A stretch of 62,825 nt of DNA, taken from NCBI GenBank assembly GCA_024639065.1, contig JAHEJC010000002.1:1-62825 (forward strand), written 5' to 3'. The position numbers and the translations under genes were made by a program. The notes beneath the pieces were generated by a model, which did not search any database, was not told the DNA's origin, and saw only the letters and a list, made by a program, of their open reading frames with translations. Each line of letters opens with the position of its first letter. The stretch's first letter is position 1. Below, one piece after another: positions 41,955-43,911 of this stretch. This stretch comes from Lewinellaceae bacterium (lineage in GTDB: Bacteria; Bacteroidota; Bacteroidia; Chitinophagales; Saprospiraceae).

Positions 41955-42998
41955 CTATTTCTCAGGGCGTATTTGAAAATTAATCAATAACACAGAAGCT
42001 AAAAGAAAAATCGCAAACGCCTGATGAAACACTCCGTACCAAAGTGGAATATTTCCTTTACAATTTATTACAGTTAAAATGCCCAAGATAATTTGCGCAA
42101 ATGTTAATCCAAGCATCCACTTTGTGGATTTTGTAAAAAATAAATTCTCTATACGCCTAGAAATAAAAAAATAATATATGACCACAGTACCAAACAAATA
42201 AGCTGTCATTCTATGAAAAAATTGCACAATCATAGCCATGAAATGGTTTTCATCATAATTAATAAATGTTGATGCATTCCAGACCGCGGCCTTAAATAGA
42301 TCTTTTGGTACCATATATCCATTCATATCCGGCCAGGTCGGATAGGCCAAACCGGCTTTCATTCCAGACATAATTCCTCCAAGAAAAATCTGCAATGCCA
42401 ATATGGCTAATAAAAATCTGGCCCATCTTTGCAATGAAGCTGGTAGAACAGTTCTCTTCTTCCCAAAAACTTCTTCAAAATATACCCACCATAAATAACC
42501 AAACAATAATAAGGCAAAACAAAGGTGTAGCGTCAATTTATAAGCATTCACCCATGGTCTGTTTACCAGACCAGAAGCCACCATTATCCATCCAAATGAA
42601 GCCACTAATACGGCTAGTAAAATTACATTCAAAAGCCGCCGCATCAACATCCTATTTATCAATCCTTTCTTCCAAAAAATTATAAAAGGAATCAGAAAAA
42701 CAAAACCCATGAGCCTGGCCCATAAACGATGGAAATATTCCCAGAAGTAGATAAACTTAAATTCAGATAAGGTCATCCCCTCATTAATCTTTTCATATTG
42801 AGGCGTTTTTTTGTATTTGCTAAATTCAGTTTGCCATTTATTATTATTCATTGGAGGAAGAGATCCTGTAATGATTTCCCACTTAGTAATTGATAAACCA
42901 GATCCTGTAAGCCTAGTGACACCTCCTATAAAGATTTGAAAAAAAATCATAATCAGCCCAACCAACAACCAAATTTGTACATATACTTTACTATTCAT
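41955..42998 (-). CDS. ctaA: Heme A synthase (COX15/CtaA family)
   Basis: This integral membrane enzyme oxidises heme O to heme A for cytochrome oxidase. The 347-residue protein has eight hydrophobic helices. The first ends in GGVTRLTGSGLSITKWEIITGSLPP, the family hallmark, followed by FIYFWEYFHRLWARLMG with heme-ligand histidines. A second half of similar layout has SGLVNRPWVNAYKLTLHL, FFHRMTAYLFG and FHQAFAIFLLAS. It implies an aa3-type oxidase and aerobic respiration. It points away from the proposed origin. Confidence 0.93.
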   Translation of the reverse strand: MNSKVYVQIWLLVGLIMIFFQIFIGGVTRLTGSGLSITKWEIITGSLPPMNNNKWQTEFSKYKKTPQYEKINEGMTLSEFKFIYFWEYFHRLWARLMGFVFLIPFIIFWKKGLINRMLMRRLLNVILLAVLVASFGWIMVASGLVNRPWVNAYKLTLHLCFALLLFGYLWWVYFEEVFGKKRTVLPASLQRWARFLLAILALQIFLGGIMSGMKAGLAYPTWPDMNGYMVPKDLFKAAVWNASTFINYDENHFMAMIVQFFHRMTAYLFGTVVIYYFFISRRIENLFFTKSTKWMLGLTFAQIILGILTVINCKGNIPLWYGVFHQAFAIFLLASVLLINFQIRPEK

Positions 42999-43205
42999 TA
43001 ACCTATCTTATTTCGATCAACAATTCTATTCGTTATAATAATATTTTCTTTTTTATTAAATACAAACACTATTATTATTACTTATGTTGATTTGTTAACA
43101 ACTTGAAGTTAAATAAATAGGTAAATTAAGATTGCACAATTTTATCTATTTTATTCTACTTATTACCAACACACTAAATATTTTATTGTCAATGGATTAT
43201 ATTAT

Positions 43206-43214
43206 TTATCCACA
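43206..43214 (+). promoter_or_regulatory. DnaA box, perfect consensus
   Basis: TTATCCACA matches the consensus TTATnCACA exactly. It is the leftmost of the clustered boxes in the gap. Confidence 0.8.
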
Positions 43215-43233
43215 CTCTTACAAGTTTGGATAT

Positions 43234-43242
43234 TGTTGATAA
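43234..43242 (-). promoter_or_regulatory. DnaA box, near consensus
   Basis: TGTTGATAA on the plus strand is TTATCAACA on the minus strand, one mismatch from TTATnCACA, 19 bases after the perfect box. Confidence 0.6.
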
Positions 43243-43279
43243 CTTAATTATTCTAAACTATAAATTAATCCATTAATGT

Positions 43280-43288
43280 TGTTGATAA
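43280..43288 (-). promoter_or_regulatory. DnaA box, near consensus
   Basis: This is a second inverted TTATCAACA (plus strand TGTTGATAA), one mismatch from consensus, in the same cluster and orientation as the preceding one. Confidence 0.6.
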
Positions 43289-43347
43289 ATAATTTGATTT
43301 TGTTGAATTAATAAAAGGATGTACTAAATTGGTTACCTATCTGGATG

Positions 43348-43356
43348 TTATCGACA
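43348..43356 (+). promoter_or_regulatory. DnaA box, weak
   Basis: TTATCGACA has one mismatch from TTATnCACA and lies between the inverted boxes and the last direct one. Confidence 0.5.
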
Positions 43357-43368
43357 TAACTGAAAAAC

Positions 43369-43377
43369 TTATCAACA
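43369..43377 (+). promoter_or_regulatory. DnaA box, near consensus
   Basis: This direct TTATCAACA has one mismatch from consensus and is followed immediately by a long A/T-only stretch that could unwind. Confidence 0.6.
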
Positions 43378-43458
43378 CATATAGAAAATATTTATATTAT
43401 ATATCTAAATATTAATGAACATCTAATAAATATTAATTAAAATGAATGTTAATAATAT

Positions 43459-43911
43459 ATGCGCGTATTAATACAAAGATGCAAACAAGCCAAAGTAGAA
43501 ATTAATCATAAAGAAGAGAAAAATATTTCTGAAGGAATGGTGGTGCTTCTAGGAATTGAAATCAAAGATACAGAAGAGGATATATATTGGTTAATAAATA
43601 AAATTAAGAACCTAAGAATTTTCAATGACGAAGATTCAATAATGAATAAATCGGTCATAGATATTAAAGGTGAACTTCTCATAGTCAGTCAATTTACGTT
43701 GCATGCTAGTACGAAAAAAGGAAACCGTCCATCATATATAAGAGCAGCTAAAGCGCCTGTTTCCATACCGTTATATAACATGTTTGTAAATGAATTGAAG
43801 AAAGAAACGGGATTAAAGATTGAAACGGGAAAATTTGGAGCTGACATGCAAGTACATTTAATAAATGATGGACCGGTTACAATTTTTATTGATTCAAAAA
43901 TTCGAGAATAA
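43459..43911 (+). CDS. dtd: D-aminoacyl-tRNA deacylase
   Basis: Dtd hydrolyses D-amino acids wrongly attached to tRNA. The 150-residue protein has the start MRVLIQRCKQAKVEI, the catalytic-site segment LLIVSQFTLHAST (the SQFTL motif) with GNRPSYIRAAKAP, and the C-terminal cis Gly-Pro region as NDGPVTIFIDS. It is the first gene right of the proposed oriC and overlaps mazG by one base (TAATG). Confidence 0.95.
   Translation: MRVLIQRCKQAKVEINHKEEKNISEGMVVLLGIEIKDTEEDIYWLINKIKNLRIFNDEDSIMNKSVIDIKGELLIVSQFTLHASTKKGNRPSYIRAAKAPVSIPLYNMFVNELKKETGLKIETGKFGADMQVHLINDGPVTIFIDSKIRE

Follow-up and report, generated by a model that had tools for sequence, protein, structure and literature searches.

The gap upstream of ctaA as the probable chromosomal replication origin of a Saprospiraceae bacterium

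The non-coding gap between ctaA and dtd is, with a probability that we put at roughly 94%, the chromosomal origin of replication (oriC) of this Saprospiraceae bacterium, a reading that rests on sequence and on comparison with related genomes. The same role had been proposed for the gap in a preliminary description of this DNA, and it is supported here by conserved DnaA boxes, by an element linked to ctaA across the family, and by switches in strand composition. The window, i.e., the whole stretch of 62,825 nucleotides that was analysed, is contig C481 of a draft assembly of 616 contigs and 6.77 Mb.

DnaA boxes in the ctaA/dtd gap

The candidate oriC is an AT-rich gap of 460 bp (42999..43458), delimited from its G+C content, its box cluster, its conservation in the family and a breakpoint in composition. 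Its G+C content is 19.6%, vs. 35% in the flanks. As previously described, it separates two divergent genes, ctaA on the left (COX15/CtaA family; 41955..42998, minus strand), which is the gene to which the putative origin is tied across the Saprospiraceae, and dtd on the right (D-aminoacyl-tRNA deacylase; 43459..43911, plus strand). The named matches to the CtaA of the window are mostly from Saprospiraceae.

All five DnaA boxes listed in the preliminary description were recovered at their places, namely the exact TTATCCACA (43206..43214, plus strand), TTATCAACA in three copies (43234..43242 and 43280..43288 on the minus strand, 43369..43377 on the plus strand) and TTATCGACA (43348..43356, plus strand). 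A sixth, box-like site, TTATTAACA, is found directly before dtd (43447..43455, minus strand), and a TGTTnATAA site recurs at the same place in relatives. The A/T-only runs said to flank the boxes are also present (43033-43047, 43385-43404, and 43424-43443), though similar runs are frequent elsewhere in the window.

The gap contains six TTATNNACA boxes where 0.52 are expected, and five TTATCNACA sites where 0.05 are expected; among 5000 Markov shuffles of the gap, none reached either count. In a scan of DnaA-box density, one of the checks suggested beforehand, the highest density of the window over 250 bp was located in the gap. Across the window as a whole, one-mismatch matches to TTATNCACA show no enrichment (93 observed vs. 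88 expected), and therefore single boxes carry no meaning. Unlike such single boxes, the local clustering of boxes in the gap is meaningful.

An unwinding-type element and its linkage to ctaA

An element on the minus strand, TTGTTAACA-AATCAACA-TAAG-TAATAATAATAG (43069-43101), sits approximately 105 bp to the left of the first of these boxes (43206). From its sequence, it appears to be laid out as a basal unwinding system (BUS), with tandem DnaA boxes, a short spacer, and candidate DnaA-trios. Toward ctaA, the order is a DnaA box, a tandem second box, a short and usually G+C-rich spacer, and trinucleotide repeats, and the family consensus is approximately TTNTCCACA-AAYYMACA-NSSC-TRATRATRA. Box 1 (TTGTTAACA, 43093..43101, minus strand), which is the top weight-matrix match of the window, and box 2 (AATCAACA, 43085..43092, minus strand) were assigned by their place in a family-wide 30-bp motif, and the spacer (43082..43084, minus strand), which is TAA here and G+C-rich in most relatives, by the motif alignment. 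The candidate trios (43070..43081, plus strand), read from the box as 3'-CAT TAT TAT TAT-5', were recognized by a three-base periodicity that is conserved in the family. As DnaA-trios are described as a 5' tail (PMC8287927), they were assigned to the plus strand here, as the single-stranded tail. In the same study, BUS elements were searched as a DnaA box at most 16 bp from at least three trios of the form 3'-NAN-5', with a middle adenine (PMC8287927); in the window, AATCAACA and TTGTTAACA are located 3 bp and 11 bp, respectively, from four such trios.

With a weight matrix of 30 columns, the element is the best site in the window (20.8 bits vs. 7.6 for the next one). When the window was left out of the training, it still scored 19.5 bits (vs. 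7.6), a leave-one-out value that was reached by none of 3000 shuffled gaps. A second motif-like site in the draft genome of the window (G000, C452:7428) has only 11.1 bits. The motif of the window is among the weaker members of the family, with an imperfect box 2 and a spacer that is not G+C-rich.

The preliminary description had located the core of the origin among the boxes on the right, whereas the conserved unwinding element is on the left, adjoining ctaA. We place the putative core of the origin in this element (43069-43101) and regard the right-hand boxes as presumed accessory sites. The AT-rich DNA that separates the trios from ctaA (42999..43069), which contains the A/T-only run 43033-43047, would be the unwound region. 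If the DnaA/BUS system of other bacteria serves as a guide, DnaA would bind to the box cluster (43206-43377) and to the tandem boxes (43085-43101), and from the latter it would polymerise leftward onto the trinucleotide repeats of one strand (43070-43081). The AT-rich DNA would then open toward ctaA, leading to helicase loading, after which two forks would depart in opposite directions.

Among 198 genomes of the family, Dtd was found in 188 and CtaA in 166. The two genes share a contig in 64 of the 115 genomes for which both gene positions are listed, and in 55 of these 64 they are divergent and within 5 kb of each other, with a gap of 267-612 bp in 26 of the 55. The gap sequence diverges fast, and therefore a DNA search with it in the family retrieved only short and weak matches; orthologous gaps were located through dtd and ctaA. 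In 21 such gaps (window included), 70 boxes were counted vs. 8.5 expected, so that the comparison with relatives envisaged in the preliminary description speaks for conservation of both the gap and its boxes. The alignment of the gaps displays a conserved block close to ctaA, and in 18 of the 21 the flanking 9 kb have a higher skew on the side of dtd than on that of ctaA.

For 62 of the 75 named loci, the top motif match of the whole locus falls at most 900 bp upstream of ctaA, a count that is partly circular, since those very regions had served to build the motif. A whole-genome search, not restricted to the regions upstream of ctaA and allowing three mismatches, gave a match in 133 of the 198 family genomes, nearly always one or two, and no match at this threshold in the other 65; a control with the reversed motif gave few matches. 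Among the 150 matches listed, 93 are within 700 bp upstream of ctaA and on its strand, at distances of 33-389 bp (median 167 bp), and 10 further ones are upstream of dtd, with ctaA located elsewhere. Relocation of dtd does not separate the element from ctaA. In all, about a hundred relatives carry the element at ctaA.

A search for (TAR)n repeats alone missed most relatives, which carry TGATGATGA. In at least one relative with a longer distance between ctaA and dtd, L018, a SRAP-type (HMCES/YedK-like) gene (783-1493) is located between the putative origin gap and dtd; the longer gaps of the family measure 0.9-2.5 kb. In the single-contig relative G173, the ctaA match (C1:3678420-3679433) has one in-frame TGA, and no BUS match was retrieved at three mismatches.

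Strand composition and the position of dnaA

In the 7.31-Mb contig of the relative G126, the skew in sampled stretches is above zero between about 0.4 and 4.2 Mb and below zero elsewhere. Read from contiguous 20-kb stretches, the skew at four-fold sites of plus/minus genes jumps from -0.32/-0.10 (358-378 kb) to +0.07/+0.38 (378-398 kb). This flip at 378 kb coincides with the element, at 378,297, and the raw cumulative-skew minimum (363,715) is 15 kb off the element. The cumulative-skew minima of G070 (118,649) and G082 (199,260) are inside the respective ctaA/dtd gaps (118,215-118,739 and 199,013-199,439). In G062, a single contig, the sign of the skew switches between 2.25 and 2.6 Mb and switches back between 6.0 and 6.5 Mb; there, ctaA is located at 2,347,714-2,348,736 and the element at about 2,348,919 (2.349 Mb, locus L253). 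In the near-complete relatives G057 and G124, no clear skew switch was observed in the sampled stretches (L146-L165 and L186-L205), which may reflect rearrangement or weak asymmetry.

The cumulative GC skew of the window, in its raw form, does not reach a minimum at the gap. This signal is masked by the strand of the genes, and therefore four-fold sites split into leading and lagging were used. After correcting for gene strand, the best composition breakpoint among all gene boundaries is at 43,228, in the gap, although the peak is broad (a fit of 22.7 vs. 21.5 for the next gene boundary); the switch is visible only after this correction, in a window whose own genome is a draft of 616 contigs. 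Around 43,228, the contrast in composition between leading and lagging genes has the direction that is seen in the relatives, too (permutation tests, p = 0.0002 for T/A and p = 0.036 for G/C). In the GC-skew analysis advocated in the preliminary description, a switch is seen at the element or the gap in G126, G070, G082, and G062, and at the gap in the window after the correction; none is seen in G057, G124, or the raw skew of the window.

The origin had also been described as unlinked to dnaA, which holds for the relatives in which both were located on one contig, where the two are at least about 0.9 Mb apart, and has no counterpart in the window's own draft, where dnaA was found neither with TIGR00362 nor with the DnaA protein of a relative. 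In near-complete relatives with both genes on one contig, the distance from dnaA to ctaA is about 0.9 to 3.8 Mb; in G126, dnaA is at 6.49 Mb, inside one replication arm. The gene is present in all eight relatives checked, and its absence from the draft is probably an assembly gap. In three near-complete genomes of the set, dnaA marks the start of the numbering (G062:C1, G057:C1, and G124:C1, at bases 25, 209, and 130, respectively), following the usual rotation convention; in G062, this start is more than 2 Mb away from the skew switch.

Alternative readings and relation to known systems

The gap also holds the promoters of two divergent genes, and DnaA boxes occur in regulated promoters, so DnaA could act here as a transcription regulator, with the origin elsewhere. 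We consider this very unlikely: a shared promoter region does not account for the element remaining at ctaA where dtd has moved, tandem boxes followed in fixed phase by trinucleotide repeats do not belong to promoters, and the switch in composition at this very place speaks for replication. An even smaller probability is given to a DnaA-titrating or secondary site (datA-like), or to the origin of a second replicon. Clusters of DnaA boxes indeed titrate DnaA in other bacteria, but this gap carries an unwinding element, it has conserved chromosomal genes on both flanks, and the corresponding site lies on the boundary between the replichores of the main chromosome in both G126 and G062. The least probable reading is a chance clustering in a very AT-rich gap. 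It could invoke the AT-richness of TTATCAACA and the frequent A/T runs of the window, but the shuffled gaps never attained the box count, and the conservation in relatives of differing base composition already refutes it.

Among 295 genomes sampled from the class, 6 that are outside the family have the motif at two mismatches. In the same order, L266:1501-1530 and L268:1501-1530 carry the same 30-bp element with two mismatches, between nadA and a PpiD/SurA-like gene. Unlike the element of the window, these copies are not at ctaA, and their sequence suggests that they are likely an origin in a different gene neighbourhood. BUS-type elements are also present in f21, a family of the class that is more distant, at L270:1501-1530 and L271:1501-1530; the one in L270 is between an RpiB-like gene and a large open frame, which it precedes and slightly overlaps, the frame beginning within the motif. 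The chances seem about even for a broader scenario, in which the origin of Saprospiraceae is fixed to ctaA, DnaA reads variant trios, 3'-GAY-(TAY)n-5', from the tandem boxes, and this cassette is a portable core of the origin that has changed its gene neighbourhood within the order, sitting at ctaA in one family and at nadA/ppiD in another.

The origin reading would locate the origin in a large and mostly uncultured family, where the rule that places it next to dnaA fails. The motif would locate it from one contig, which could serve coverage-based estimates of growth rate in draft genomes, and the tight link to ctaA together with the variant trios offers a clean test of the generality of the BUS in Bacteroidota. 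No description of a ctaA-linked origin in Saprospiraceae was found in the open-licence literature, and an earlier description may exist elsewhere.

The proposed origin resembles an ordinary dnaA-adjacent oriC of the Bacillus subtilis type in its DnaA-box cluster, its AT-rich putative unwinding region, and its composition switch. In contrast to it, the origin of Saprospiraceae appears to be tied to ctaA, with dnaA far off in the near-complete relatives. The element itself is similar to the B. subtilis-type BUS (PMC6669920; PMC8287927), with tandem DnaA boxes, a short spacer, and at least three trinucleotide repeats whose adenine is fixed, the order and phase of all these parts being fixed as well, and with a first repeat that is usually 3'-GAY-5' in Saprospiraceae. 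It differs from the BUS of B. subtilis and its relatives in the later repeats, which are 3'-TAY-5' here instead of the usual 3'-GAT-5', in the first trio of this particular genome, 3'-CAT-5', where most of its relatives have 3'-GAY-5', and in not adjoining dnaA.
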